From: Winogradskyella costae
Lineage (GTDB): Bacteria; Bacteroidota; Bacteroidia; Flavobacteriales; Flavobacteriaceae
DNA: 64,000 nt
Direction of reading: 5' to 3'
Assembly (NCBI RefSeq): GCF_013403865.1
Contig: NZ_JABFDK010000003.1
Coordinates: forward strand, 62,001 to 126,000
Below the pieces are notes generated by a model that was given only the letters and a program-made list of their open reading frames with translations, searched no databases and was not told where the DNA came from. The translations under genes and the position numbers were made by a program. Position 1 is the first letter of the stretch, and each line of letters starts with the position of its first letter. Shown piece by piece: positions 24,478 through 53,518 of the stretch.

Positions 24478-26373
24478 TTATTTTTTAATATCTAACACTT
24501 CGTAAGTTGAATTATTTGAGATGTATTCTGGGATCAAGTGCTTTATCAAAGATACTATTTCCAACGGTTGGGTTAAAGAGTTTATAGACGTTAGTTTAAT
24601 AATTTGCTTTTCAACATCATTTATATCAACGTGTCTTGATTTTGCTATCATAATTTTATCATGATAAGTTTTTGTAGTGTTCTCGCCATCGGCTAAAAGT
24701 TCTTCGTAAATTTTTTCACCTGGTCTTAAACCTGTTATTTTAATGTCGATATCCTCTGGGTATCTTAAACCAGATAAAATAATCATGTTAGTTGCAAGAT
24801 TAAAAATCTTAATAGGCTCTCCCATATCAAAAACAAAAATTTCACTTCCATTACCCATAGCTGCAGCTTCTAAAACTAACTGACAAGCCTCGGGGATTGT
24901 CATAAAATAACGCGTAATGTCTTTGTGAGTTACGGTTAAAGGGCCACCTTTATCGATTTGTTTTTTAAATAAAGGAATAACAGATCCATTAGAGCCTAAC
25001 ACATTTCCAAATCTAGTGGTAATAAATTTTGTACTCCCTTTTCCTTTCAGGCAACTGACATAAAGTTCAGCAATACGCTTAGTTGCGCCCATGACGTTTG
25101 TTGGGTTTACAGCTTTATCTGTTGAAATTAAAACAAATTTATCAACACTGTGCTTTACAGCAATATCTGCAACATTTTTTGTGCCTCCGATATTAACACT
25201 AACTGCTTCAAATGGATTATTTTCCATTAAGGGTACGTGTTTGTACGCTGCTGCATGAAAAATTATTTTAGGCTTGTATTGATTGAATATTTGATCTATT
25301 CTTGTTCGGTTGCGAACATCAGCTACAACTGCTTCGATATTTTCTAAGCTGCTTTGTCTAAATTCTTGTTGTATATCATAAAGTGCAGACTCTGCATTAT
25401 CTACTAATATTAATTTTTTGTAGTTATATAAGCTAACTTTTCTACAAATCTCACTTCCTATAGAACCAGCAGCACCGGTTATTAAAATAACTTTATTATC
25501 GTATTGGTCCTCTAAATCAGGGTTTTTTATATTAATTGGGTCCCTACCTAATAGATCTTCAATTTTAACTTCTTTTATTTGACCAACACTTAAGTCTCCA
25601 TCTATCCAGCTCTGAACAGGTGGAACAATTTTAACTTTAAGACCTAATGAAAAAAGACTTCCCGTAATTTGAAGTAACCGCGTAGGTTCTATATTTTGAA
25701 TTGAAATTATAACATCTTCAACAGCCTTAGTTTTGATGAATTCTTCTGTTATTGATTCAATACTATAAACTTTCAATAAGTTTATTTTTTTTCCAACTTT
25801 ACGTTCGTCATCATCAATAAAACCGACAACTTCTAAACCACTTTTAGTATCATTTTGAATGGCATCATAGGTCAACATACCTGAATTTCCTGCACCAAAA
25901 ATCAAAACATTGGATATTGATTGAAAATCTTGTGTGATATGGTTGTAAATTGATTTTATAAATAGCTTAGCTCCAATAAGTAATAAGATATTTAATAGTA
26001 AATTGATATAAATAATAGATCCAGGTAAATTAAAAATACTGTTTTCACCCAACATTTTTCGACTTAAAAATGTGATAAATATTAGAGCAGTAGCTAAAAT
26101 ATTTGCTCCGATAATAATATTTACGATATCTTTAAATCCTGTAAATCTAACCACTCCTTTATACGACCCAACAGCAACAAAGCTAGCTGCAGCGATAATG
26201 GCGACGTAAGGAATCTGGTTGAGTAGGTTTATAATATCAAAATCTATCTGAAAATTGAATCGTATTAAATAGGCCAAGAAAAATGAAGCTACTACAATTA
26301 TTACGTCGAATAACAGTACTAGCCATTTAGAAGCATATTTTTCCGATATTTTATTCAGAAGTGTAATTAACAT
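24478..26373 (-). CDS. PglF/FlaA1-type NDP-sugar 4,6-dehydratase, membrane-anchored
   Basis: A 631-residue protein with four N-terminal membrane helices (to about residue 135), a first Rossmann fold (IFGAGNSG, ~155) and the catalytic SDR domain (LITGAAGSIGSEI, ~295). The architecture is that of PglF/WbpM/CapD, which convert UDP-GlcNAc to the UDP-4-keto-6-deoxy sugar. The segment AAYKHVPLME and STDKAVNPTNVMGATKR hold the usual catalytic residues; in this branch Tyr is replaced by Met (NVMGATK), as in PglF/FlaA1 relatives. The gene overlaps the upstream aminotransferase gene by 7 bases, which agrees with their consecutive steps. Confidence 0.92.
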   Translation of the reverse strand: MLITLLNKISEKYASKWLVLLFDVIIVVASFFLAYLIRFNFQIDFDIINLLNQIPYVAIIAAASFVAVGSYKGVVRFTGFKDIVNIIIGANILATALIFITFLSRKMLGENSIFNLPGSIIYINLLLNILLLIGAKLFIKSIYNHITQDFQSISNVLIFGAGNSGMLTYDAIQNDTKSGLEVVGFIDDDERKVGKKINLLKVYSIESITEEFIKTKAVEDVIISIQNIEPTRLLQITGSLFSLGLKVKIVPPVQSWIDGDLSVGQIKEVKIEDLLGRDPINIKNPDLEDQYDNKVILITGAAGSIGSEICRKVSLYNYKKLILVDNAESALYDIQQEFRQSSLENIEAVVADVRNRTRIDQIFNQYKPKIIFHAAAYKHVPLMENNPFEAVSVNIGGTKNVADIAVKHSVDKFVLISTDKAVNPTNVMGATKRIAELYVSCLKGKGSTKFITTRFGNVLGSNGSVIPLFKKQIDKGGPLTVTHKDITRYFMTIPEACQLVLEAAAMGNGSEIFVFDMGEPIKIFNLATNMIILSGLRYPEDIDIKITGLRPGEKIYEELLADGENTTKTYHDKIMIAKSRHVDINDVEKQIIKLTSINSLTQPLEIVSLIKHLIPEYISNNSTYEVLDIKK

Positions 26374-27494
26374 GTTACAAAATACGAATTTATAGTTGAA
26401 GCGATTCTTTCTAGCTCATTATCAGTAAGATTGGATCCACTGGGTAAACACAAACCTTTCTCAAATAACTCATCAGAAACACCGTTAAGGTAACTTGGAT
26501 AATCTTTAAAAATAGGCTGTTGATGCATTGGTTTCCAAAGGGGTCTAGATTCAATGTTTTCTTTCTCTAGTGCTAACCTTAAGCCTTCACGAGTCTCTTT
26601 CGAATCTAATAGAATACAGGATAACCAACGATTAGAGAAATAGCCCTTCGGTTCTTTAAGAAAGGTAATTTTGCTATTATGATTAAAAGCATCAAAATAA
26701 AATTGATGGTTTGAACGACGTTTTGCAACATGACTATCTAAGATTCTCATTTGTCCACGGCCAATACCGGCAAGGATGTTAGACATCCTATAATTATAGC
26801 CAATTTGCGAGTGTAAATAATGTGGAGCATCATCTCTCGCTTGAGTTGCTAAAAAAACAGCGTGTTGCTTAAGTTCTTTACTTTTAGTAACTATAGCACC
26901 ACCTCCCGAGGTCGTAATAATTTTATTTCCATTAAATGATAATATTGAGAAATCGCCTAACGTACCACAATTTTTACCTTTATATAAACTTCCTAAGGAC
27001 TCAGCACTGTCTTCTAAAACTGGAATGCTATATTTTAATGCAACTTCGTTAATCTCATCAGCTTTATAAGGCATACCATATAGATGAACAGCAATAATAG
27101 CTTTAGGTTTTGTTCCTTTTGATATTCTATCTTTAATAGCGATTTCTAGTTGCTCAGGACACATATTCCAGGTGTCTCTTTCACTATCTACAAAAACAGG
27201 AGAGGCTCCTTGGTAGACAATGGGATTAGCAGAAGCCGAAAATGTTTTGCTTTGACAAATGACCTCATCTCCATGGCTGACGCCTAACATAATTAAACTT
27301 AAATGCAAAGCAGATGTTCCAGATGCTAATGCGGCAACATGCTTATTATCTTTAAGATAAAATTGTAAATCACTTTCAAAACCATTGACGTTTGGTCCTA
27401 ATGGAGCGACCCAATTAGTATCAAAAGCTTCATTGATGTAAGATAATTCATTACCACTCATATGTGGTGATGAAAGCCATATTTTAGGTTTCAT
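26367..27494 (-). CDS. DegT/DnrJ/EryC1-family sugar aminotransferase (PglE-like)
   Basis: A 375-residue PLP-dependent aminotransferase that should add an amino group at C4 of the keto-sugar made by the overlapping PglF-like enzyme. The PLP lysine is in SFNGNKIITTSGGG, and VLEDSAESLGS holds the Asp that contacts the cofactor. The opening KIWLSSPHMSGNELSYI is characteristic of PglE-type enzymes. The expected N-acetyltransferase (PglD) gene is not found next to it; instead a 359-base gap and a divergent ATP-grasp gene follow. Confidence 0.92.
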   Translation of the reverse strand: MKPKIWLSSPHMSGNELSYINEAFDTNWVAPLGPNVNGFESDLQFYLKDNKHVAALASGTSALHLSLIMLGVSHGDEVICQSKTFSASANPIVYQGASPVFVDSERDTWNMCPEQLEIAIKDRISKGTKPKAIIAVHLYGMPYKADEINEVALKYSIPVLEDSAESLGSLYKGKNCGTLGDFSILSFNGNKIITTSGGGAIVTKSKELKQHAVFLATQARDDAPHYLHSQIGYNYRMSNILAGIGRGQMRILDSHVAKRRSNHQFYFDAFNHNSKITFLKEPKGYFSNRWLSCILLDSKETREGLRLALEKENIESRPLWKPMHQQPIFKDYPSYLNGVSDELFEKGLCLPSGSNLTDNELERIASTINSYFVTC

Positions 27495-27853
27495 ATGAAA
27501 AAATTGTTTAGTAATTATTGCTATTACTGATCAATTTCATGTCAATAGAGGGATCTGGGACACGATCTAAATTAATAGGTAAATATGCATTTTTATCTTG
27601 AGCTAACCCAAATTAAAACGATAAAAGGCAGATAATTACGTTCTGTATTTTAGTAAAAGTAGTGAATAAATAATTTCAATTGTGTCACTATAATGTTTTG
27701 ATTTATCGTAGGTATATAATTGTAACAAAAACATTACATTTGAGTTGCCTTTTTTAAAAAATAGGTTTGTGTTTTTTATTAAGAATAGTGCTAACTTTTT
27801 TATATTTATAAACATTTTAACTATGTTAAAAAAATGTAATCTAAATCGAGAAA
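27495..27853. other. Divergent intergenic region
   Basis: About 360 bases between the PglE-like gene (minus) and the ATP-grasp gene (plus). I see no open frame with coding character. The clear signal is one plus-strand promoter motif, TACATTTG at 27735-27742; the minus-strand promoter was not identified. Confidence 0.6.
27735..27742 (+). promoter_or_regulatory. Putative -7 element (TACATTTG) for ATP-grasp/HAD operon
   Basis: TACATTTG fits TAnnTTTG. If used, the ATP-grasp transcript has a leader of about 105 bases. Confidence 0.4.
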
Positions 27854-28825
27854 ATGAATATTTTAATTACTTCAGCAGGACGTAGAGTTTCGCTCATAAG
27901 ATCCTTTCAAAAAGAATTAAAAAAAATAAATAAAAACGGTAAGGTGTTTGCTACAGATGCTGAACCTATTTTATCTGCAGCTTGCCAAATTGCTGATGGC
28001 TTTTTTAAAGTGCCTAGATTAGATGCGCTCGATTATATTTCAGTTTTAATGCGTTTTTGTAAAACACATGAGATTTCTTTAATTATTCCCACTATCGACA
28101 CTGAATTACTTGAGTTAGCTAAAAATAAAGCAAAATTTAAGCAAGAAGGTATTGAGGTTGTGATTTCATCTGTAAACTTTGTTTCTAAATGTAGAGATAA
28201 ACGTGTAATACATCAGTTTTTTCAATCTCACAATGTAAATGTTGCTAAGGAATATGAAAAAGATAATTATAATTTACCTCTTTTTATTAAACCCATAGAT
28301 GGAAGTAGGAGTGTGGATACATATTTAATAAGAACAAAAGAAGAGCTAACAGACTATCATTTTAATAATGAAAAGTTGATGTTTTTAGAATATATCGATC
28401 ACGAAGAATTTGATGAATTTACATGTGATTTATATTTTAGCAAGGAGCATAAATTAAAATGTGTCGTTCCAAGAAAACGAATAGAAATTAGGGATGGAGA
28501 GGTTTATAAAGCTTTGACAGTCAATAATGCTCTGGTTTCTTATATAAAGAAAAACTTGAAAACTATAGATGGTGCTGTTGGATGTCTTACTGCTCAGTTT
28601 TTTTTAAATAAGCAGGATGATGAAAAAATTTATGCCATAGAAATTAACCCACGATTTGGAGGGGGATATCCACTATCGTATTTATCTGGAGCTAATTTCA
28701 GCAAATGGATTATTGAAGAATATTTATATGATAAATCTATAGAAGAAAAATTTGATGTTTGGGAAAGTGACTTATTAATGATTCGTTATGATGATGAAAT
28801 TTTAGTACATGGATATAAAGGTTAA
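27854..28825 (+). CDS. ATP-grasp ligase in the polysaccharide locus
   Basis: A 323-residue ATP-grasp enzyme of the short carbamoyl-phosphate-synthase-like (PylC-like) group. It opens with a Rossmann-like pre-ATP-grasp domain (NILITSAGRRVSLI; IIPTIDTEL), followed by the ATP-binding half (FIKPIDGSRSVDTYLI; MFLEYIDHEEFDEFTCDLY) and the metal-binding end (IYAIEINPRFGGGYPLS). Such enzymes join a carboxylate, often an amino acid, to an amine or another nucleophile by way of an acyl phosphate. The gene runs opposite to the surrounding cluster and overlaps a HAD hydrolase gene by 17 bases, which implies joint action. The substrate is not known. Confidence 0.85.
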   Translation: MNILITSAGRRVSLIRSFQKELKKINKNGKVFATDAEPILSAACQIADGFFKVPRLDALDYISVLMRFCKTHEISLIIPTIDTELLELAKNKAKFKQEGIEVVISSVNFVSKCRDKRVIHQFFQSHNVNVAKEYEKDNYNLPLFIKPIDGSRSVDTYLIRTKEELTDYHFNNEKLMFLEYIDHEEFDEFTCDLYFSKEHKLKCVVPRKRIEIRDGEVYKALTVNNALVSYIKKNLKTIDGAVGCLTAQFFLNKQDDEKIYAIEINPRFGGGYPLSYLSGANFSKWIIEEYLYDKSIEEKFDVWESDLLMIRYDDEILVHGYKG

Positions 28826-29465
28826 TGAAAACACCGTAGTAGTTTTTGATTTAGACGATACGCTGTATAATGAATTAGATTTCTTAAAATCTGCATATAA
28901 GTCTATAGCTAGATACGTAGAGCCAAACGATTGGAAAGCCCTATACTCAAAGATGTTCTCATTGTACAGATGCAAGGTTAATGTTTTTGAATTTATTTCT
29001 AATACCTATAATCTAGAAATGGGATTATTTATTGAGATGTATAGAAATCACAAACCAGATATTCAATTGTTTGAAGGTGTTTTAGAAGTTTTTAAGACTA
29101 TAAAGATTAAAGGCGGTAGAATAGGTATCGTTACTGATGGTAGATCAATAACGCAGCGAGCGAAACTACAGAGTCTTGGTATACTGAACTATATTGACAA
29201 AATTATTATTTCGGAAGAAATTGGTTCTGAAAAACCAAATTTAGCGAATTTTGAAGCTATTGAAACGGCCTTAATAGGTGTGGAATATTATTATATAGCT
29301 GACAATTTTAAGAAAGATTTTTTAGCGCCAAATGCTTTAGGTTGGAAAAGCGTTGCATTAATAGATAATGGTAAGAATATACATTCAGAATCGCACATGT
29401 ATATGGAAGCTAAACATCTTCCAAAGGCCTTTTTCATTGATTTCGACGATATTAATATAAGTTAA
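28809..29465 (+). CDS. HAD-family hydrolase paired with the ATP-grasp ligase
   Basis: A 218-residue haloacid-dehalogenase-like phosphatase. Motif I is VFDLDDTLYNE (nucleophile Asp), motif II the Thr in IVTDGRS, motif III the Lys in GSEKPN, and motif IV the acidic YYIADNFKKD. The helical cap between motifs I and II marks it as a C1-type HAD acting on small molecules. It starts inside the end of the ATP-grasp gene, so the two are translated together; a phosphatase step in the same pathway is likely. It converges on the PglC-like gene with 8 bases between them. Confidence 0.88.
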   Translation: MDIKVNENTVVVFDLDDTLYNELDFLKSAYKSIARYVEPNDWKALYSKMFSLYRCKVNVFEFISNTYNLEMGLFIEMYRNHKPDIQLFEGVLEVFKTIKIKGGRIGIVTDGRSITQRAKLQSLGILNYIDKIIISEEIGSEKPNLANFEAIETALIGVEYYYIADNFKKDFLAPNALGWKSVALIDNGKNIHSESHMYMEAKHLPKAFFIDFDDINIS

Positions 29466-29473
29466 TTCTTTAT

Positions 29474-30094
29474 CTAAATTTCTGATTGGGTTCCCATAAA
29501 CTCAGGCATATCAATATTTTCAGAATTATTAATGTCTTTTCTGTTAATGACTTTATCTATTGTTTTTAGGATAATTCTAGTATCTAAAGTAAGCGATTGA
29601 TGTTCTACGTAATACACGTCATATTCGAATTTTTGTTCCCAGCTAATAGTGTTTCTTCCATTTACCTGTGCCCAGCCTGTAATTCCTGGTAAAACGTCGT
29701 GACGTCTATTTTGTCTTTTATTATATCGATCTAAATATATAGGTAATAATGGGCGTGGACCAATTAAACTCATGTCCCCTTTAAATATATTGATCAACTG
29801 CGGTAGCTCGTCTAAAGATAATTTTCTACACACAGCCCCAACTTTTGTAATACGATCCATTGCAGGTAATAAAGTGCCATTGCTATCTGTTTTATCTGTC
29901 ATGGTTTTAAACTTAATAATCGTAAATACCTTGCCTTTTTTACCAGTGCGCTCTTGGTAGAAAAAAGGTTTACCCTTATTAAGTATGAATAAGCTAATAA
30001 TGAGAAATATAAATATTGGAGAAATAATTAAAAGTCCAATAAACGCGGCTAAAAAATCAATAATACGTTTTATGATTTTCGGATATAGATTCAT
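29474..30094 (-). CDS. PglC-like initiating phosphosugar transferase
   Basis: A 206-residue monotopic phosphoglycosyl transferase that moves a sugar-1-phosphate from the UDP-sugar to undecaprenyl phosphate and so starts the repeat unit. A single re-entrant membrane helix (FLAAFIGLLIISPIFIFLII) is followed by the conserved KIIKFKTM, LSLDELPQLINIFKGDMSLIGPRPL with the catalytic Asp-Glu pair, and VLPGITGWAQVNGRN. The short size without an added membrane domain fits the PglC type. It ends the long minus-strand run of glycosyltransferase genes, 6 bases after the next one upstream. Confidence 0.93.
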   Translation of the reverse strand: MNLYPKIIKRIIDFLAAFIGLLIISPIFIFLIISLFILNKGKPFFYQERTGKKGKVFTIIKFKTMTDKTDSNGTLLPAMDRITKVGAVCRKLSLDELPQLINIFKGDMSLIGPRPLLPIYLDRYNKRQNRRHDVLPGITGWAQVNGRNTISWEQKFEYDVYYVEHQSLTLDTRIILKTIDKVINRKDINNSENIDMPEFMGTQSEI

Positions 30095-30100
30095 AGTAAC

Positions 30101-31237
30101 TTATGCTTTAAGAACTCCATTTATTAATTGAATTAAATCCTTGTTTATAATATCAACATCGAAACGCTCTTCTGCATATTTTCTACTATTAATTCCCATT
30201 TCTTTGATTTTCTCAGGATGGGTAATAAAATACTCCATTGCTTCAATTAATGCAATCAAATTTTGTGGCTCTATTAAAAAGCCATTAATACCTTCCTTCA
30301 CAGACTCCTTGCAGCCTACAGAATCTGTTGTGATAATAGGATTACCACATGCGCAGGCCTCTAGAGTTGTTCTTGGTAGACCTTCTCTGTAGTAACTAGG
30401 TAGAACGAATACATCTCTTTTATGAAGATGTTTGTCAATATGCCGTTGTTCACCATGAAATATTATAACCTCTTCACTGTGTAAATTGTTTAATTCGTCT
30501 ATACTAATTGCAGATGGTGAGGTTTCTGGTGACCCAATTAAATGAAACTCTGTTTTGGGGTATTTTGCTTTCAATACCTTGGCAGCCTCCATGTATAAAT
30601 CAATACCTTTTTCTTTTATCAATCTTGCCACCAAAAGGAAGCTAACATGTTCTGATGGATTTTTTTCTTTAAAGCTAAATTGATTTAAGTTAACCCCAGA
30701 GCCACTAACAAAATCCACGTTTTGCTTCTTAGAAATAACTTTCCTATCTAAGAACAATTGGTAATCATCTCTATTTTGAAAAACGATAACTTTATTTTTT
30801 CGAATAGATAATTTATATAATATCTCATTGAATCGTTGTAGCAGTCTCGCTTTGGTAGATAAGCCTGTAAATGCATAACCTAAACCAGTAATTAAAGAAA
30901 TCACGGGTACTTTACATTGATTTGCCGCAATTGAACCGTAAATAACCGGTTTAACGGTGTAAGGGAATACAAGATCTATTTTATTATCTTTAATAAGTCC
31001 CTTTAATTCTCTTATAGATTGTAGATCCTTAAGAGGGTTAAGACCTGTTCTGTTTAAATTAAATTCTAATGGTGTCGCACCTAACGCTTCTAATTTAGCA
31101 TGTATATTATCAGGGTGTTCTGGAGCAGCGGCAAAAACTTGAAATCCATTTTTTATTAAACTCTGAATAAAGTCTCCTCGAAAATTTATTAAGGAAGCCG
31201 ATAGAGATGCTATAAGTAATATTCGTTTTTTATCCAT
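30101..31237 (-). CDS. GT4 glycosyltransferase (PglA-like)
   Basis: A 378-residue GT-B fold enzyme of family GT4, expected to add the second sugar to the lipid-linked unit started by the neighbouring PglC-like enzyme. The N-terminal half has LIASLSASLINFRGDF and the acceptor-side GLGYAFTG; the donor side has VARLIKEKGIDLY and the E-x7-E motif in REGLPRTTLEACACGNP. The pairing with a PglC-type transferase mirrors PglA/PglC systems, though sugar specificity cannot be read. Confidence 0.9.
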   Translation of the reverse strand: MDKKRILLIASLSASLINFRGDFIQSLIKNGFQVFAAAPEHPDNIHAKLEALGATPLEFNLNRTGLNPLKDLQSIRELKGLIKDNKIDLVFPYTVKPVIYGSIAANQCKVPVISLITGLGYAFTGLSTKARLLQRFNEILYKLSIRKNKVIVFQNRDDYQLFLDRKVISKKQNVDFVSGSGVNLNQFSFKEKNPSEHVSFLLVARLIKEKGIDLYMEAAKVLKAKYPKTEFHLIGSPETSPSAISIDELNNLHSEEVIIFHGEQRHIDKHLHKRDVFVLPSYYREGLPRTTLEACACGNPIITTDSVGCKESVKEGINGFLIEPQNLIALIEAMEYFITHPEKIKEMGINSRKYAEERFDVDIINKDLIQLINGVLKA

Positions 31238-35380: not shown

Positions 35381-35962
35381 TTAAATGTGCTTAATGATTT
35401 TTTTAATATCGATATCATTTATCACTCTAGCGGGAATACCAGCTATCATTGTATGTTCTTTATCAAAAGATTTATTAACTACGGCATTTGCCCCAATTGC
35501 GGTGTTATTAGCAATTTTTATATTTCCATAAATTTTTGCTCCAGGAGCTATGTATATGTTGTCACCAAGAAGTGGAGCTTCTTTTTCTCCACCCGAAGCT
35601 CCGATATTTACGCATGCATGTATTCTACAATTTTTACCAACTCTTGTAGCATTATTTACGACTATAGTACCATAATGAACAATAGCTAAACCAGGACCAA
35701 AGACATTTATCGGAATTGAAAAACCCAATTTGAGAGATATTTTTTTAAACTTGAATTGTAAATAGAGTTTATAAAGTTTAAAGAATCCTTTGTTTTTACA
35801 ATTAGTGTAGTATTCTAGTTTTCTTAATGCTTTTTGAAATGTCCATATTGGGTTTGGAGAGAGTATATTAATAATTTTACTCGCTAAGCTATGTGTTTTC
35901 ATACCGAGAGCGATTTTATCTTTATTTAAGTAATCGAAGTAATCTGTTTTAGAACTTATCAT
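35381..35962 (-). CDS. Serine-acetyltransferase-like hexapeptide acyltransferase
   Basis: A 193-residue left-handed beta-helix acyltransferase of the CysE-like type. Hexapeptide repeats run from INVFGPGLAIVHYGTIVVN to TMIAGIPARVI, with the catalytic His probably in VHYG and a second one in IHACVNIG. Homologues in polysaccharide loci O-acetylate sugars rather than serine; the context favours that. It could also replace the missing sugar N-acetyltransferase, but PglD proteins have a different N-terminal Rossmann domain that is absent here. It overlaps the Wzy-like gene by 14 bases. Confidence 0.85.
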   Translation of the reverse strand: MISSKTDYFDYLNKDKIALGMKTHSLASKIINILSPNPIWTFQKALRKLEYYTNCKNKGFFKLYKLYLQFKFKKISLKLGFSIPINVFGPGLAIVHYGTIVVNNATRVGKNCRIHACVNIGASGGEKEAPLLGDNIYIAPGAKIYGNIKIANNTAIGANAVVNKSFDKEHTMIAGIPARVINDIDIKKIIKHI

Positions 35963-43098: not shown

Positions 43099-46000
43099 AT
43101 GAAAGCCCCAAATAACCTACTTAATTGCATTTGTAATTTATCTACTCTATTTTTATTATTTTCATTACTTTTATTTTCACAGAGCTCTAATTCCCAACAA
43201 TTAGCATTTCCTTCAGCTAAAGGAGCTGGCGCATATGCATCTGGTGGACGAGGTGGAACGGTATCCATAGTCACCAATCTCAATGACAGCGGTGTAGGAA
43301 GTTTAAGAAGTTTTTCAAATGTATCAAATACTACTATTGTATTTAATGTTTCTGGTATTATAAATTTATCAAATACATTGTACTTATATGGCAATAATGT
43401 AACCATAGCTGGCCAAACAGCGCCTGAAGGTGGAATAACTATTGATGGCGCCAGAGTTATATTCAGTAATACGGATAATTTGATATGCAGATTTATAAGA
43501 TTTAGAGGAGGGTATGCCGAAAATAATGATACTGTGGGAGGCTATTATTTAAACAATGTGATTTTTGATCATTGTTCAATTTCCTTTGGTGGTGATGAAG
43601 CATTTTCAATTATTGTAGATAGTCCAGATGAAACAGGAGGTGAAATAACTATACAGAATTGTCTATTAGCAGAGAGCAGTACTGGGGGTATTATGGGAGG
43701 GAGAGAAGCTCCAGATAATGTATATGGTATATCACTTATAGCCAATGTTTATTATAATATCTCTCATAGATTCCCAAATCTAAATAGTAACTCTCGATAT
43801 GACGTTATTAATAATTATGTTTATAATCATAGCAAAAGAATGATTAGAGGAAATTTTGGATATAAAATAAATGAAATAGGAAATTTATATGATTATGGTA
43901 ATAATAGGGTTTGGGATCAAACGTTAAATCATCATGGATGCGAAACAGGAAATGAAATCCCTATCATTTATGCTCAAGGTAATACTATTGTAGGTATTGA
44001 AAGTCAAAGAGACAATGAAGCCGTATCTAACACAATAGCAGAAATGAATGCAAACAATAATTTAATGTGGAAATATTTTTATGATAACAACTCAGAATGT
44101 GGATATGGACTTAAAAATAGAGGTGATCAATTAGAGGCAGATTATTTCGCAGATATACGACTTCCAATACTTGGAAAAATTCCTGTAATTTTTGATGCTC
44201 TTGAATTAAAAACTCAAATAGTTCCGAATGCGGGTGCTAGCAAAAGGCTTAATCAGGATGGCTCAATAAGTGACAATAATGATGCTTTAGATACGGCTTG
44301 GAAAGCAAATATTGAAGCAGGTATATATGTAGTGGAAATTTCTGAAGCAAATTATACCGTTCCAGCAATAATTTCAATCACTAGAGAAGATAGTTATGAT
44401 TCGGACAATGACGGTATGTCTGATGAGTGGGAGCTTTTACAATTTAATACTACATTACATGATGGTACGCTTGATTCAGATGGAAATGGCTACACTGATC
44501 TCGAAGAATACTTAAATGGAGTAGATGCTGATACTAATATTAGTGCAATTGGTGTAGAAAGCATAGCAATAACTCCAAACCCTGCTGAATTACAAATAAC
44601 AGATGCACTTCAGTTAACAGCGACTTTTACACCTTCAAACGCAACAAACCAAAATGGAATATGGAGTTCTAGTGATGAAGCCATTGCTACAGTAGATGCA
44701 ACTGGTCTTGTGACACCAGTTGATATAGGTGAAGTAATAATAACATTCATTGCCGATGATGGTGGCTTCACAGATATTTCTGAAATAACGGTTTTTCCTG
44801 AAGCGCTCCAAGCGAGCGCAGGTATTGACCAACAAATTTGTGAAGGCGAAAGCGTCACACTTACAGCGATTGGAGGAACAAGTTATGTTTGGGGTACAGG
44901 TGAAATTACTGAAAGTATTGAAGTAACTCCTAATGCAACAATAACATATACTGTAACTGTTTCAGATGATTTTGGTCAATCCGAAGAAGCGAGTGTTACT
45001 GTAACAGTAAACAGCATACCATTAGCAAACGCAGGGGAAGATCAAACTATTTGCTTAGGTCAATCTGCAACACTGATCGCTACCGGAGGAGTCTCTTATT
45101 TATGGAATACAGGTGAAACTACAGCTTCAATTGAGGTAAATCCATTAGTAGAAACAAGCTACAGTGTTGAAGTAAGTAATGAGAACTGTTCGATCATAGA
45201 TGAAGTTACTGTTTTTGTAGCGGAAATTCCAAATATTATTATTTCTGAAGATATTGTAATTGTTAAAGGTGAGACAACTACGCTTACAGCAACTGGTGGA
45301 GAAAACTACGAATGGAGCACAAATGAAACTACAGAATCTATAGAGGTAAATCCAGCAGAAACAACAACATATATAGTTAACTCTGTTAGTGGGAGCGGAT
45401 GTATAAGTAGTGCTAATGTTACTGTAACAGTAATAGCCGAAATCATAGCTGATGCTGGTGAAGATGTTACTATTTGTGATGGAGAATTCGTTACTTTATC
45501 TGCCTCAGGTGGATTAACATATCTATGGAATACAGGAGATTCAGGTTCTGAACTTATTATTAACCCTACGATTACAACAACCTATATAGTAACTGTGGAA
45601 GATGAATATGGCTATACTAAAAATGATAGTGTTACTGTATTTGTAAATGAATCACCAAATATTACAGTTGGTGATGACGTGTTCATTATGATAGGTGATT
45701 CTACAACACTTACGGCTAATGGAGGGAATAATTTTGTTTGGAGTACAGGAGAAACTACAAATGAAATTTCAGTAAGTCCAGATGTAACAACAACATATAT
45801 AGTTACAGGATTTTCAGAAAATGGTTGTCAAAATACTGCAGAGGTTACTGTAACTGTAGTAGAAGTATTAAATGCCAATGCAGGAGAAGACGTTTCAATC
45901 TGTTTAGGAGAAAGCGTAACGTTAAATGCTTCAGGAGGCATAACTTACATTTGGAATACGGGAGGATCAGGTGCAACACCAACAATTACTCCTACAGAGA

Positions 46001-48708
46001 CCACAACTTACACAGTTACAATTACTGATGGCTTTGGAAACTCAGATACGGATGATGTTATTGTAACCGTCAATCCATTACCAATAGCAAATGCAGGAGA
46101 AAATCAAACAATTTGTGTAGGTGAGTTTGTAAATTTAACAGCTGAAGGTGGGGATGCTTACTTATGGAGTACTGGTGAGACTACAGCTAATATTACAGTA
46201 AATCCCAATGAAGACACTATATATACAGTAGAGACATACTCTAACAATTGTTCAGATAGTGCTGATGTTACCGTATTTGTTTCTGCCATGCCAGAGTTTG
46301 TTGTAAGTGAAGATATAACGATTACAACTGGTAGTTCTACGACACTTCTAGTGAGTGGAGGAGATTCTTACTTATGGAATACAGGTGACACTTCCAATTC
46401 TATTGAGGTTAGTCCTATGGAAACAACAACTTATAGTGTTACAGGTTTTTCTGCTAATGGATGTCAGAGTGTAGCAGAAGTTACTGTAATAGTCATAACA
46501 GAAATTAATGCAGATGCAGGTAATGATGTTGCTATTTGTTTTGGAGAAAGTGTTACATTAAATGCTTCAGGTGGAATAAATTACGCATGGAGTACAGGTG
46601 AAACAGATGCTTCTCTAACTTTAAATCCAATAGAGACTACAACTTACATGGTTACAGTAACGGATAGTTTTGGGAATTCAGATACAGATAGTGTAACAGT
46701 TATCGTAAATGAATTACCAACTATAACAATAAGTGAAAGTATTACAATAATAGAAGGAGATAGCACAAACTTATTAGTGAGTGGAGCAGAAACCTATTTA
46801 TGGAATACAGGAGACAATGAGAACTCAATTACTGTTAATCCAACAGAAACAACAACTTATAGTGTTACAGGTTTCTCTGCTAATGGATGTCAGAGTGTAG
46901 CGGAAGTTACGGTGACAGTCATAGCAGAAATTAATGCAGATGCAGGTAATGATGTTGCTATTTGTTTTGGAGAAAGTGTTACATTAAATGCTTCAGGTGG
47001 AATAAATTATGCATGGAGTACAGGTGAAACAGATGCTTCTCTAACTTTAAATCCAATAGAAACTACAACTTACATGGTTACAGTAACGGATAGTTTTGGG
47101 AATTCAGATACAGATAGTGTGACAGTAACCGTAAATGAATTACCGACTCTATTGTTAACTGAAGATGTTACTATTTTTGAAGGGGAGAGTATCAACCTAA
47201 CAGTAAATGGTGCCGAATCTTATTTATGGAATACAGGCGACACTTCAAACTCAATAGTAGTGAATCCAACGATTACTTCAACTTATAGTGTCACAGGTTT
47301 TTCATCAAGTAATTGTGAAACTTCAGCAGAAGTAACAGTAACGGTTATTCCAGAAATAAATGCTAATGCAGGAAACGATGTTGCTATTTGTTTAGGAGAG
47401 AGTATTACTTTGAACGCTTCAGGAGGAATTAATTATTCTTGGAATACAGGCGAGACTACCGCATCAATGATAGTTAGTCCAATTGAAACTACAACCTATA
47501 CAGTTACAGTAACTGACGATTTAGGAAATTCAGATTCAGATAGTATGACAGTAACCGTAAATGAATTACCTCTAATTAGTACAAGTGAAAACATTACAAT
47601 AATAGAAGGGGAGAGTACTGATTTAATAGTAAATGGTGCTGTAGCATATTTATGGAACACAGGTGATACCTCAAGTTCTATAACAGTAAGTCCTACTCAA
47701 ACAACCATATATAGCGTTGTTGGGATATCAAATACGTGTACAAGTGAGCCATCGGAAATAATTGTTACTGTTATTCCGTTATTTCAAGCCTCAGCAGGTA
47801 CAGATTCACGCGTTTGTGATAATGAGAGTTACGAAGTTATTTTAACAGCAAATGAAGGAGATAGTTATTTGTGGAGTACAGGTGAAACAAGTCAAAGTAT
47901 AGTCGTAAATCCATTATCGACTTCAACTTATTCTGTTACGGTAACACAAGGGGATCAATCAGATACAGATGACGTTAAGGTTTATGTAGATCCGAGCCCA
48001 GTAGTAACTATAGCAAATGGGGAAAGTGTTGAAATATTAAGAGGAGACTTTGTAACGTTATCTGCTTTTGGTGCTAATACATACCGTTGGAATAATGGTG
48101 CATCGCAACCAAATATAGCAGTAAGCCCTTCTATAACCACAACGTATGAAATAAAAGGATTTATTGGTGAATGTTATGATGAAAAGCAAGTCACCGTAAA
48201 TGTCCTAAATCGCGTTATTGCAGATGCTGGTGAAGATGTATTTGCTTGTTTAGAAGAAGTATCAACCTTAACGGCAAGTGGAGGAGATGACTATATATGG
48301 AGTACAGGTGAGACGACGCGAACGATTGAGGTATCACCGACAGAAACAACCGATTATACTGTTACGGTATTTAATGCCTTAGATTTTGATGAGGCCACAG
48401 TAAGAGTCGAGGTGGGTGTAAATTGTGCTTCTGATTCAATTGATGAAGAAACAGAAATTGGATTTGATGTATATCCTAATCCAGTATCAGATATTGTTAA
48501 TGTAAAAGTGTTTGGTGTATTAAATGTTTCAGATGTAAACATCTATGACGTAACAGGAAAACTAGTTAAGCACTCAAAAATTACGAATGAAAATTTAGAG
48601 TATACTATCACGACCCAAATAGGTATTAGTTCACTTCAATCTGGTGTATATTTTATAAAACTTATAGGTAATGGTAGAGCTATGACTAAAAAACTCATTG
48701 TGGAATAA
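43099..48708 (+). CDS. Giant T9SS cargo: pectate-lyase-like beta-helix, Ig-like domain and 17 PKD-like repeats
   Basis: A 1,869-residue secreted protein. After a signal peptide (to ~residue 33), residues ~35-370 resemble the Bacteroidota pectate lyase-like right-handed beta-helix (FPSAKGAGAYASGGRGGTV; VTIAGQTAPEGGI; IIFDHCSISFG-type turn). A calcium-binding type segment (DSDNDGMSDEWE, DSDGNGYTDLEEY) at ~433-475 and a BIG2 Ig-like domain (~487-567) follow. Then come 17 repeats of ~71 residues, mostly alternating two types: one with DAGEDVTICxGE and one with ISEDITIIEGES, both with YLWNTGETTxSIxVxPTETTTY. The last ~80 residues (YPNPVSD...GKLV...GVYFIKL...KKLIVE) are a type A T9SS sorting domain. 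Expected on the cell surface; the substrate may be a uronic-acid polymer, which is inference. Confidence 0.9.
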   Translation: MKAPNNLLNCICNLSTLFLLFSLLLFSQSSNSQQLAFPSAKGAGAYASGGRGGTVSIVTNLNDSGVGSLRSFSNVSNTTIVFNVSGIINLSNTLYLYGNNVTIAGQTAPEGGITIDGARVIFSNTDNLICRFIRFRGGYAENNDTVGGYYLNNVIFDHCSISFGGDEAFSIIVDSPDETGGEITIQNCLLAESSTGGIMGGREAPDNVYGISLIANVYYNISHRFPNLNSNSRYDVINNYVYNHSKRMIRGNFGYKINEIGNLYDYGNNRVWDQTLNHHGCETGNEIPIIYAQGNTIVGIESQRDNEAVSNTIAEMNANNNLMWKYFYDNNSECGYGLKNRGDQLEADYFADIRLPILGKIPVIFDALELKTQIVPNAGASKRLNQDGSISDNNDALDTAWKANIEAGIYVVEISEANYTVPAIISITREDSYDSDNDGMSDEWELLQFNTTLHDGTLDSDGNGYTDLEEYLNGVDADTNISAIGVESIAITPNPAELQITDALQLTATFTPSNATNQNGIWSSSDEAIATVDATGLVTPVDIGEVIITFIADDGGFTDISEITVFPEALQASAGIDQQICEGESVTLTAIGGTSYVWGTGEITESIEVTPNATITYTVTVSDDFGQSEEASVTVTVNSIPLANAGEDQTICLGQSATLIATGGVSYLWNTGETTASIEVNPLVETSYSVEVSNENCSIIDEVTVFVAEIPNIIISEDIVIVKGETTTLTATGGENYEWSTNETTESIEVNPAETTTYIVNSVSGSGCISSANVTVTVIAEIIADAGEDVTICDGEFVTLSASGGLTYLWNTGDSGSELIINPTITTTYIVTVEDEYGYTKNDSVTVFVNESPNITVGDDVFIMIGDSTTLTANGGNNFVWSTGETTNEISVSPDVTTTYIVTGFSENGCQNTAEVTVTVVEVLNANAGEDVSICLGESVTLNASGGITYIWNTGGSGATPTITPTETTTYTVTITDGFGNSDTDDVIVTVNPLPIANAGENQTICVGEFVNLTAEGGDAYLWSTGETTANITVNPNEDTIYTVETYSNNCSDSADVTVFVSAMPEFVVSEDITITTGSSTTLLVSGGDSYLWNTGDTSNSIEVSPMETTTYSVTGFSANGCQSVAEVTVIVITEINADAGNDVAICFGESVTLNASGGINYAWSTGETDASLTLNPIETTTYMVTVTDSFGNSDTDSVTVIVNELPTITISESITIIEGDSTNLLVSGAETYLWNTGDNENSITVNPTETTTYSVTGFSANGCQSVAEVTVTVIAEINADAGNDVAICFGESVTLNASGGINYAWSTGETDASLTLNPIETTTYMVTVTDSFGNSDTDSVTVTVNELPTLLLTEDVTIFEGESINLTVNGAESYLWNTGDTSNSIVVNPTITSTYSVTGFSSSNCETSAEVTVTVIPEINANAGNDVAICLGESITLNASGGINYSWNTGETTASMIVSPIETTTYTVTVTDDLGNSDSDSMTVTVNELPLISTSENITIIEGESTDLIVNGAVAYLWNTGDTSSSITVSPTQTTIYSVVGISNTCTSEPSEIIVTVIPLFQASAGTDSRVCDNESYEVILTANEGDSYLWSTGETSQSIVVNPLSTSTYSVTVTQGDQSDTDDVKVYVDPSPVVTIANGESVEILRGDFVTLSAFGANTYRWNNGASQPNIAVSPSITTTYEIKGFIGECYDEKQVTVNVLNRVIADAGEDVFACLEEVSTLTASGGDDYIWSTGETTRTIEVSPTETTDYTVTVFNALDFDEATVRVEVGVNCASDSIDEETEIGFDVYPNPVSDIVNVKVFGVLNVSDVNIYDVTGKLVKHSKITNENLEYTITTQIGISSLQSGVYFIKLIGNGRAMTKKLIVE
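44808..48425 (+). repeat. 17 tandem ~213-bp repeats inside the giant gene
   Basis: Seventeen in-frame units of about 71 codons. Two stretches are nearly identical at the DNA level with an exact period of 426 bases (two units): 46420-46718 and 46846-47144 differ mainly by scattered single bases, while other units are strongly diverged. Confidence 0.9.
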
Positions 48709-50974: not shown

Positions 50975-52354
50975 TCACTTACCTATAGAAGAGTACTCAA
51001 AACCAATTTTACTCATTTCTTCTTTGTCAAGAATATTTCTACCATCAAAAATGAAAGCTGGTTTTTTCATTTGGTTATATATCTTTTCCCAATCGTAGGT
51101 CTTAAACTCATCCCATTCTGTCATAATAGCAATCGCATGCGCATCTTTTGATGTTTCGTATGGATCACTATACGATTTAACTAAGTCGTTGTTTTCTTCC
51201 TCAGATCTTGTATTTAAATAATTAAGGTCTGCTTGCACTTTTTTACTGTTAACTTTTGGATCGTAAACCGCAATATTGGCTTGTTCATTTAACAAATGAT
51301 CTGCGACATAAATTGCTGCCGATTCTCTAGTATCATTTGTGTCTTTTTTAAATGCCCAACCTAACATGGCTATCTTTTTCCCAGAAACGGTATTGTATAG
51401 TGTACTAATTAGTTTATCTGAAAAACGTCTTTTTTGATGATCATTTAAAATGATCACTTGTTCCCAATAGTCAGCAACAGCATTCAGGCCATAACTTCTA
51501 GCAATGTACACAAGATTTAAAATGTCTTTTTGAAAACAAGAGCCACCAAAACCAATAGATGCATTTAAAAATTTTGGGCCAATTCTAGAATCCATACCAA
51601 TTGCTCGTGCAACTTCATTGACGTTAGCTTCTGTATGTTCACATAATTCAGAAATGGCATTAATAGACGAAATTCGTTGAGCTAAAAATGCGTTAGCGGT
51701 TAATTTAGATAATTCAGAAGACCAAACATTAGTTCTTAGAATTCTATCTTGTGAAACCCAACTACCATAAATGTTTGCTAAACTTTCTATCGCTTCTTCC
51801 GATTCTCCACCAATTAAAACACGATCTGGATTTAATAAATCTTGAATAGCTGTACCTTCAGCTAAAAATTCAGGATTAGATAAAATGTCGAATTTTACGT
51901 CGCTCCCTGTATTGTGTAAAATACTTTTTATAGCTTGAGCTGTTCTTACTGGTAAAGTAGATTTTTCAACTACAATCTTATCTGTGGTCGAAACTTCTGC
52001 GATATTTCTAGCACATAATTCTACATACTTTAAATCTGCCGCCATTCCTTTTCCTTTACCATATGTTTTGGTAGGGGTATTCACCGAGATAAAAATCATT
52101 TCTGATTCTTTGATTGTTTCATCAATTGCTGTTGAGAAAAATAGATTCTTTCCTCTTGTTTCTGCAACAATCTCAGCTAATCCTGGTTCGTAAATAGGCA
52201 ATTTTGACAAGTCTTCATCATTCCAAGCTGCGATACGCTCTTCATTAATATCTACTATTGTAACTTTAATGTTAGGATTTTTTTTTGCTATTACTGCCAT
52301 CGTTGGTCCACCAACATAACCAGCACCAATACAGCAAATCTTCGTGATTTTCAT
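50975..52354 (-). CDS. ugd: UDP-glucose 6-dehydrogenase (eukaryote-like type)
   Basis: Oxidises UDP-glucose to UDP-glucuronate with two NAD. The 459-residue protein starts [20 protein letters not shown] and contains [33 protein letters not shown], the catalytic cysteine in [15 protein letters not shown] (~residue 272) and [16 protein letters not shown]. Several of these blocks, notably [14 protein letters not shown] and VNTPTKTYG, are as I know them from animal UGDH, and the length is near the animal ~490 rather than the usual bacterial ~390-440. It should supply UDP-GlcA to the adjacent 4-epimerase and the capsule pathway. Confidence 0.95.
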
Positions 52355-52485
52355 GCTTTTAAGTTTATTTTGATTTAAGTCTAAAATTTATGATGTATAC
52401 AATTTTTGACTTTTTTTAAGTGATTGAATTTATATTTTATGTGATCAGCCTTTCTTTACTAAAAGACTGCGTTATAGAATTTTGT

Positions 52486-52493
52486 CAAATTTA
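52486..52493 (-). promoter_or_regulatory. Putative -7 element (TAAATTTG) for UDP-glucose dehydrogenase
   Basis: Minus-strand TAAATTTG fits TAnnTTTG; it sits just after the upstream epimerase stop codon and gives a ~125-base leader if used. Confidence 0.35.
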
Positions 52494-52498
52494 ATATT

Positions 52499-53518
52499 TT
52501 AATTGTAATATGCTTTATACCAATCTATGAAAGATTTGACTCCTTTGTTAATGGAAGTATTAGGGCTATAGTCGTAGTCTTTAATTAACTCATCGACATC
52601 CGCCCAAGTACGTTCTACATCACCCGGCTGCATGTCCATCATATCTTTCTTTGCTATTTTATCTAAGTTTAATTCTATTTCCTTTATAAAATCTAATAAT
52701 TTAACTGAGTTGTTGTTTCCAATATTATAAATTTTGTAAAATTCATTGGATTTTATTCGTTTGGTTGGTGATTTCTCAATAACACGAACAACACCTTCTA
52801 CAATATCATCTATATAAGTAAAATCCCGTTCCATGTTACCATGATTAAATACTTTTATAGGTCTGTCGTTTACAATGGCATCTGTAAATAAGAACATCGC
52901 CATATCTGGTCGACCCCAAGGTCCATAAACTGTAAAAAAGCGTAAGCCTGTGGTAGGAATATTAAATAGGTGGCTATAAGTATGAGCCATTAGTTCATTA
53001 CTCTTTTTTGTAGCCGCATATAAACTAATTGGGTGATCTACATTATCTTCTGTAGAAAACGGTGTTTTCTTATTCATCCCATATACACTAGAACTACTTG
53101 CATACACTAAATGCTTTATAGCGTTGTTTCTACAACATTCAAGAATATTTAAAAAACCTACAAGATTAGAATCTACATACGTTTCAGGGTTTTCAAGACT
53201 GTATCTTACTCCTGCTTGAGCCGCAAGGTTACAAACAATGTCGAATTTTTCGTTTTTGAATAATTTTGGTAATTCCTCTCTGTCTTCAAGATTCATCCTT
53301 ATAAAGGAGAACTTTTCAGACTTAGCTATGCAAAGCTTCTTAAACTCAGCAGCTTCAATTTTACCAATGCCTAATTCATTAAGCCTAGAATATTTTAAAT
53401 TAACATCGTAATAATCATTTATATTGTCTAATCCAACAACATGATGACCTTTAGATAGAAGTACCTTAGCGGTATAGAAACCGATAAAACCTGCTGCCCC
53501 TGTTACTAATATTTTCAT
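52499..53518 (-). CDS. UDP-glucuronate 4-epimerase-type NAD epimerase
   Basis: A 339-residue extended SDR enzyme: NAD-binding TGAAGFIGFYTAK, DNINDYYDVNLKYSRL, the Ser/Tyr/Lys triad in YASSSSVYG and SLYAATKKSNELMAHTYSH, and RFFTVYGPWGRPDMA. The long N-terminal insertion after DNINDYY and the KIEAAEFKKL region are typical of CapI/LspL enzymes that interconvert UDP-GlcA and UDP-GalA. With the dehydrogenase next to it this gives UDP-GalA for the polysaccharide. The pair lies at the edge of the locus. Confidence 0.9.
   Translation of the reverse strand: MKILVTGAAGFIGFYTAKVLLSKGHHVVGLDNINDYYDVNLKYSRLNELGIGKIEAAEFKKLCIAKSEKFSFIRMNLEDREELPKLFKNEKFDIVCNLAAQAGVRYSLENPETYVDSNLVGFLNILECCRNNAIKHLVYASSSSVYGMNKKTPFSTEDNVDHPISLYAATKKSNELMAHTYSHLFNIPTTGLRFFTVYGPWGRPDMAMFLFTDAIVNDRPIKVFNHGNMERDFTYIDDIVEGVVRVIEKSPTKRIKSNEFYKIYNIGNNNSVKLLDFIKEIELNLDKIAKKDMMDMQPGDVERTWADVDELIKDYDYSPNTSINKGVKSFIDWYKAYYN

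Follow-up and report, generated by a model that had tools for sequence, protein, structure and literature searches.

A PglB2-type ATP-grasp/HAD module proposed to act in place of PglD in a polysaccharide locus of Winogradskyella costae

Introduction

Replacement of a PglD-type acetyltransferase by an ATP-grasp enzyme is already known from pilin glycosylation in Neisseria. The work on the sugar involved, a glyceramido-acetamido trideoxyhexose (GATDH), reportedly goes back to Chamot-Rooke et al. (2007). Here we describe a pair of genes for an ATP-grasp ligase and a HAD-family phosphatase, situated between PglE-like and PglC-like genes in a 64,000-nt stretch of the Winogradskyella costae genome (hereafter the window; contig NZ_JABFDK010000003.1, positions 62001-126000; genome of 4.13 Mb, 99.7% complete), and compare this locus with the closest described systems.

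In PMC11130364, Neisseria PglB2 is presented as an ATP grasp/phosphoglycosyl transferase (PGT), the allelic counterpart of the PGT-acetyltransferase PglB, and is held responsible for GATDH in place of N,N'-diacetylbacillosamine (diNAcBac); pglB and pglB2 are mutually exclusive in Neisseria, and the role of PglB2 rests on genetics and glycan mass spectra. PMC6959607 reports GATDH on glycopeptides of N. oralis and N. mucosa, and its figure showing how the pgl genes are organised includes two N. oralis enzymes, a HAD hydrolase and a formyl transferase.

In Flavobacterium psychrophilum, which like the window has a PglF/PglE/PglC pathway, the bacillosamine in the repeat unit carries an N-acyl group that varies, and strains differing in R-group genes differ in lipopolysaccharide antigenicity (PMC6519341). 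The R-group genes wfpG, wfpH and wfpI are PglD homologues; the acyl group is predicted there to be added by PglD-like acyltransferases, with an acyl carrier protein as its source in one type, whereas the window carries the ATP-grasp/HAD pair.

Results

The ATP-grasp/HAD pair and its locus

We propose that the pair is probably an N-acylation module of the PglB2 type, one that acts on a 4-amino sugar in place of PglD, with glycerate as the most likely acid by analogy with Neisseria. The genes concerned are as follows.

24478-26373, minus strand: PglF-like UDP-GlcNAc 4,6-dehydratase, 631 aa (PF02719, 2.5e-120)
26367-27494, minus strand: PglE-like DegT aminotransferase, 375 aa (PF01041, 5e-92)
27495-27853, no strand: divergent intergenic region between the PglE-like and ATP-grasp genes (sequence inspected)
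27854-28825, plus strand: ATP-grasp ligase, 323 aa, proposed 4-N-acyl ligase of the PglB2 type (PF21360, 1.6e-27; PF15632, 3.6e-11; PF02655, 2.1e-8)
28809-28825, plus strand: overlap of the ATP-grasp and HAD genes, 17 bp (from open reading frame coordinates)
28809-29465, plus strand: predicted HAD-family phosphatase, 218 aa (PF13419, 6e-18)
29474-30094, minus strand: PglC-like PGT, 206 aa (PF02397, 6.9e-62)
30101-31237, minus strand: GT4 glycosyltransferase adjoining the PglC-like gene (PF00534, 1.3e-32)
35381-35962, minus strand: hexapeptide acyltransferase, CysE/EpsC-like (NF041874, 71 bits against a cut-off of 150; TIGR03570, 33 bits against a cut-off of 160.8)

In the proposed pathway the PglF-like and PglE-like proteins would, judging by their families, convert UDP-GlcNAc to UDP-2-acetamido-4-amino-2,4,6-trideoxyglucose. 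The ATP-grasp enzyme would activate a carboxylate with ATP, as an acyl phosphate, and join it as an amide to the 4-amino group, standing in for the acetyl-CoA-dependent PglD, a substitution to which the gene neighbourhoods point. If the acid is glycerate, as the Neisseria counterpart suggests, the product would be a 4-glyceramido sugar. The HAD phosphatase may free glycerate from phosphoglycerate or remove the phosphate after ligation; PglC would then move the sugar phosphate onto undecaprenyl phosphate, and the GT4 enzyme would extend it.

The PglE-like protein has 1o61 (4e-93) and 4ztc (3e-92) as its best solved relatives, both of which we take to be Campylobacter PglE, and it is expected to yield a UDP-4-amino sugar. 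On the minus strand, genes that look by eye like Wzc and Wza are followed by the PglF-like and PglE-like genes; then come the plus-strand pair and, again on the minus strand, the PglC-like gene, the GT4 gene and the remainder of the polysaccharide locus. The overlap within the pair suggests that translation of the two genes is coupled. Promoter-like matches in 26000-30500 were not above the level of shuffled sequence (22 found versus 24.2 expected). The pair is not a compositionally odd insert, GC content being 0.29-0.32 at 27-30 kb and 0.27-0.34 in the flanks.

The first-pass annotation had recognized PglF-, PglE-, PglC- and PglA-like genes, and a divergent ATP-grasp/HAD operon with a 17-base overlap between PglE and PglC; coordinates and Pfam families agree with both statements. 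It had also noted the lack of PglD, and this holds for the genome as a whole. The PglD/NeuD acetyltransferase is represented by the NCBIfam model TIGR03570, with a curated cut-off of 160.8 bits. A search of the entire W. costae genome yielded 20 matches to it at E<=0.001. All of them stay below the cut-off, and the strongest, at 69.3 bits, spans only model positions 100-202 of 202, the hexapeptide half. We thus rule out a PglD encoded elsewhere in this genome and serving the pathway. By Pfam, both proteins of the pair fall in families other than TIGR03570.

Conservation of the pair in Winogradskyella

A close ATP-grasp gene was found in 26 of 60 genomes of the genus, that of the window included, and in all 26 the pair is antiparallel to PglC. 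The HAD gene directly adjoins PglC in 23, with one gene between them in the other three (L311, L312 and L328, the last a 4.6-kb contig). PglE lies on the far side of the pair in 24 (not in L319 and L328), as the immediate neighbour of the ATP-grasp gene in 22 and separated from it by other genes in L317 and L322; wherever PglE is visible, the PglF-like gene adjoins it. Two genomes without the pair (L281 and L282) have the order PglC-PglD-PglE, so that the ATP-grasp gene next to PglE occupies the PglD slot of these two relatives.

Members of the PglD family (TIGR03570 at 1e-35) gave 46 matches in the genus. For 30 of them, given as loci, the surroundings were covered to ~1.5 kb on each side: two are the PglC-PglD-PglE cases just mentioned, one lies beside the pair (L307, genome G527) and 27 have neither PglC nor PglE in view. 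PglD is thus near the pair in only one of the 26 genomes, and the pair is not common beside an intact PglD.

PglD and ATP-grasp genes beside PglC in Flavobacteriaceae

We searched 149 Flavobacteriaceae genomes, one per genus, with each gene (one step of the survey scored the best 19 candidates per genome). The ATP-grasp protein gave 45 matches at 1e-20 in 42 genomes, and these form two sets: a close one in 26 genomes, with at least 339 bits, and a distant one of 19 matches with at most 116 bits in 19 genomes, three of which also have a close match.

PglC occurs in 102 copies in 90 of the 149 genomes. With neighbours defined as genes within 2.5 kb, a first count gave 38 copies with PglD only, 15 with a close ATP-grasp only, 16 with a distant one only, three with both PglD and an ATP-grasp and 30 with neither. 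In a recount with locally built models (27 of 30 loci went into that for PglD), two further copies proved to have a distant ATP-grasp as neighbour, and the figures became 38 with PglD only, 33 with an ATP-grasp of either set only, three with both and 28 with neither. PglD stands beside none of the 15 PglC copies that have a close ATP-grasp as neighbour. To the question posed in the first-pass annotation, whether the pair replaces or accompanies pglD in other loci, the survey speaks for replacement.

The Fisher test gave p = 6.0e-7 when every PglC copy is counted and 2.6e-6 when each genome contributes one, values that overstate independence, since the partner of PglC is clustered on the PglC tree. 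The best tree has six changes between PglD and ATP-grasp (one of the 102 rows, shorter than 150 aa, was left out), and a sign test over its supported branches gave a median p of 0.5, the pairs being too few. As a pattern the mutual exclusion is therefore strong, but as evidence for independent events it counts for less.

As to location, 14 of the 26 close ATP-grasp genes lie within 2.5 kb of PglC, two within 7 kb, and one adjoins PglE and PglF in a genome whose PglC match is on a different contig.

A separate observation concerns the 28 PglC copies that lack both PglD and an ATP-grasp as neighbours, 11 of which have a FemAB-like GNAT gene within 2.5 kb. It stands directly behind PglC in L251 (labelled by Pfam), L273 and L271, and is the second gene in L254, L260 and L221. 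Such genes also occur near 17 of the 74 remaining PglC copies and hence are not confined to partnerless ones; perhaps they represent a third kind of N-acyl enzyme. The FemAB-like and GT2 labels used here were assigned by Pfam to one or several representatives per sequence cluster and extended to the others by similarity.

Relatives in Neisseria and other bacteria

A search for the Neisseria locus returned 80 records, one of them from Neisseria. This N. sicca locus (L131) has the order PGT (205 aa), ATP-grasp (324 aa), HAD (228 aa), formyltransferase, aminotransferase, dehydratase. In Vibrio cincinnatiensis (L134) the order is PGT, ATP-grasp, HAD, aminotransferase, dehydratase; the HAD gene was called with a late start, the DLDDT motif being encoded in frame before it. 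Neither genome has a TIGR03570 match over the cut-off. Two more of the 80 loci, L157 and L200, hold weaker ATP-grasp matches without a neighbouring HAD.

The window ATP-grasp shares 44% identity with the N. sicca enzyme, 45% with that of Vibrio and 42% with that of Billgrantia bachuensis (L139); identity to the five distant-clade flavobacterial members compared is 29-32%. In a tree of 69 ATP-grasp proteins, from which rows shorter than 270 or longer than 400 aa were left out (L111 with 509 aa and L112, L113 and L115 with 662-683 aa among them), the close set, members from other Bacteroidota families and the N. sicca, Vibrio and Billgrantia proteins form a clade of 36 (SH-aLRT 99). A HAD gene adjoins 33 of the 36, the exceptions being L074, L122 and L139. 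The distant clade (24 rows, SH-aLRT 100) has a HAD next door in none. Twenty-six residues are shared by 93% or more of 32 close rows and by the Neisseria, Vibrio and Billgrantia proteins, whereas no more than 15% of 21 distant rows have them.

Loci that unite PglC, ATP-grasp, HAD and PglE-like genes occur in further families of Bacteroidota as well (L117, L119, L121, L123 and L125, with low identities in the last two).

By homology the window ATP-grasp would be of the PglB2 type, as it falls in the close clade; the comparison was made through the N. sicca enzyme. Like the Neisseria system, the window combines a homologous ATP-grasp with a PGT partner and with an aminotransferase and a dehydratase in the locus, a partnership read from gene neighbourhood; the acetyltransferase is replaced, and in N. 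sicca too a HAD gene follows the ATP-grasp gene. Exceptions to this replacement amount to one of 26 genomes in the genus and three of 102 PglC copies in the family, the latter with an ATP-grasp of the other clade. Unlike N. sicca, the window has no formyltransferase adjoining the pair, and the locus, with its Wza- and Wzc-like genes, is one for polysaccharide rather than for O-linked protein glycosylation. With Campylobacter PglD and the acetyltransferase domain of Neisseria PglB the pair would share the step, the UDP-4-amino sugar and the slot between PglC and PglE, although those are hexapeptide enzymes using acetyl-CoA and the reaction proposed here would need an ATP-grasp enzyme and a free acid.

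Some variant proteins were seen along the way. In a locus of another Bacteroidota family (L111:9417-10946) a 509-aa protein matches ATP-grasp at residues 195-502, has an N-terminal part that looks GNAT-like by eye, adjoins a HAD gene and lies near a DegT aminotransferase gene. The ATP-grasp proteins of 662-683 aa in L112, L113 and L115 are encoded directly beside a DegT aminotransferase gene. Two distant-clade ATP-grasp genes have a pyridoxal phosphate (PLP) decarboxylase-like gene next to them (L054:10582-11829; PF02784, PF00278) or one gene away (L058:10800-12065; Pfam was run on the L054 protein only), which suggests that the ATP-grasp enzymes of these two loci add an amino-acid-derived group.

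Residues and fold of the ATP-grasp enzyme and its HAD partner

The closest solved relative of the ATP-grasp protein, by sequence and by fold, is 2pn1. In an alignment of 21 members K116, K146, N265, R267 and F268-G271 are invariant and E263 is nearly so; we take K116, K146, E263 and N265 to be ATP- and metal-site residues of the fold. The structure model is of moderate quality (pLDDT 68.8, pTM 0.72), and in a fold search with it 2pn1 came first; the top 14 also include L-amino acid ligases and PylC, alongside carboxylases and others. Going by this model, the protein resembles an ATP-grasp ligase, in line with the comparison to carboxylate-amine ligases that the first-pass annotation had put forward.

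The HAD protein is an obligate partner of the close ATP-grasp. It was found at 1e-20 in 26 of the 149 family genomes, exactly those with a close ATP-grasp, and in none of the 16 holding only a distant one. The two genes adjoin in 25 of the 26 (in G121 the HAD gene is elsewhere in the genome), and all 25 adjacent pairs overlap, by 8-38 bp; a chance neighbourhood is ruled out by the identical set of genomes and the overlaps. In 17 aligned HAD proteins D14, D16, T109, D110, K142, D165 and D170 are invariant, presumably the DxDxT, T/S, K and D motifs of HAD phosphatases.

Since the HAD goes with the close clade and not with the distant one, it may serve the particular acid. Phosphoglycerate is a common form of glycerate in the cell, so a phosphatase step before or after ligation would be the simplest role, and the data suggest that HAD performs such a step, perhaps starting from phosphoglycerate. 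In the open-access literature on HAD with PglB2 or ATP-grasp we found no role assigned to HAD. We put forward, more tentatively than the module itself, the possibility that the ATP-grasp ligates phosphoglycerate or freed glycerate and that its obligate HAD removes the phosphate, which would make a glycolysis-fed route to an N-glyceroyl sugar.

Alternative explanations and points against the proposal

One alternative concerns the acid. The module could be the same and join an amino acid or another hydroxy acid (serine or alanine, for example), with the HAD acting on the phosphorylated form, such as phosphoserine. ATP-grasp specificity can shift with few residues, which speaks for this alternative, as do the L-amino acid ligases and PylC among the fold neighbours, the FemAB-like GNAT genes beside six of 25 HAD genes and the PLP decarboxylase-like genes at distant-clade ATP-grasps. 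Still, we regard it as rather unlikely: the 26 residues that set the close clade apart from the distant one are common with the Neisseria-type enzymes, presuming that they bear on the choice of acid, and the Neisseria relatives give glyceramide (PMC11130364, PMC6959607). The first-pass annotation had suggested that a carboxylate is joined to the 4-amino group by the ATP-grasp enzyme in place of PglD, with an amino acid as the example. Neighbourhoods, absence of PglD and PglB2-type homology favour the general idea; the example fares less well, glycerate being more likely than an amino acid, since in Neisseria the corresponding enzyme leads to a sugar with a glyceramido group.

It is improbable that another acetyltransferase, such as the one at 35381-35962, acetylates the 4-amino group while the pair modifies the carboxyl of a uronic acid or another sugar. 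The locus does contain this hexapeptide gene, with homologues at 1e-30 in seven of the 149 genomes, five of which also have an ATP-grasp of either clade, and genes that by eye resemble Ugd and UDP-sugar epimerase lie at 50975-53518; in seven genomes the pair stands behind a GT2 gene without PglC or PglE. However, the hexapeptide protein is closer to CysE/EpsC than to PglD, and for this reason we do not favour it as the missing N-acetyltransferase; four of its seven genomes are among the 26 with the pair, leaving 22 of 26 without a homologue, and the ATP-grasp gene keeps the PglD slot beside PglE in most loci of the genus.

Several observations weigh against the proposed module itself, in addition to the clustering on the PglC tree and the uninformative sign test given above. 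In nine of the 26 family genomes the close ATP-grasp is not part of a pgl-type locus; seven of these nine have GT2-ATP-grasp-HAD without PglC or PglE in a 20-kb stretch, and six of the nine have PglD beside PglC elsewhere, which fits the pair having another job there. At three of the 102 PglC copies, PglD and a distant-clade ATP-grasp occur together. In Winogradskyella, genome G527 (L311) has an intact-looking PglD between PglC and the pair, the pair itself lying between PglC and PglE, and the PglD family as a whole is no less frequent where the pair is present (18 of 26 genomes) than where it is absent (19 of 34). A genome-wide exclusion of the PglD family by the pair is thus ruled out within the genus, and genome-wide presence of PglD is no guide. 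In Billgrantia bachuensis no HAD gene adjoins the ATP-grasp gene, and the genome contains, though not in L139, a PglD-family gene that exceeds the TIGR03570 cut-off. The window genes are separate, divergent and inverted, in contrast to the single PGT/ATP-grasp protein described for meningococcal PglB2, but PGT and ATP-grasp are separate in N. sicca too, so that the fusion may not define the wider PglB2 group. The glycan data come from Neisseria species other than N. sicca, whose locus was the one examined, and transfer by the C-terminal domain of PglB2 is termed 'proposed' in PMC6959607.

The seven small GT2-ATP-grasp-HAD loci (L042, L043, L044, L046, L076, L078 and L079) have flanking genes in common.

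Elsewhere in the window, positions 43099-48708 hold an open reading frame of 1869 aa with repeated immunoglobulin-like stretches and a C-terminus that by eye resembles a type IX secretion sorting domain.

Discussion

Exchange of PglD for an ATP-grasp enzyme turns out to be frequent at PglC in Flavobacteriaceae and is present elsewhere in Bacteroidota; the N-acyl group of the first sugar can therefore not be read from the PglF, PglE and PglC genes. We found no description in the open-access literature of the obligate HAD partner or of the spread through Bacteroidota. That partner raises the direct question of where the acid comes from. A glycolysis-fed route, if true, would also explain what the HAD gene does in the pgl loci of Neisseria, and N-glyceroyl bacillosamine would be a common first sugar in Bacteroidota polysaccharides.

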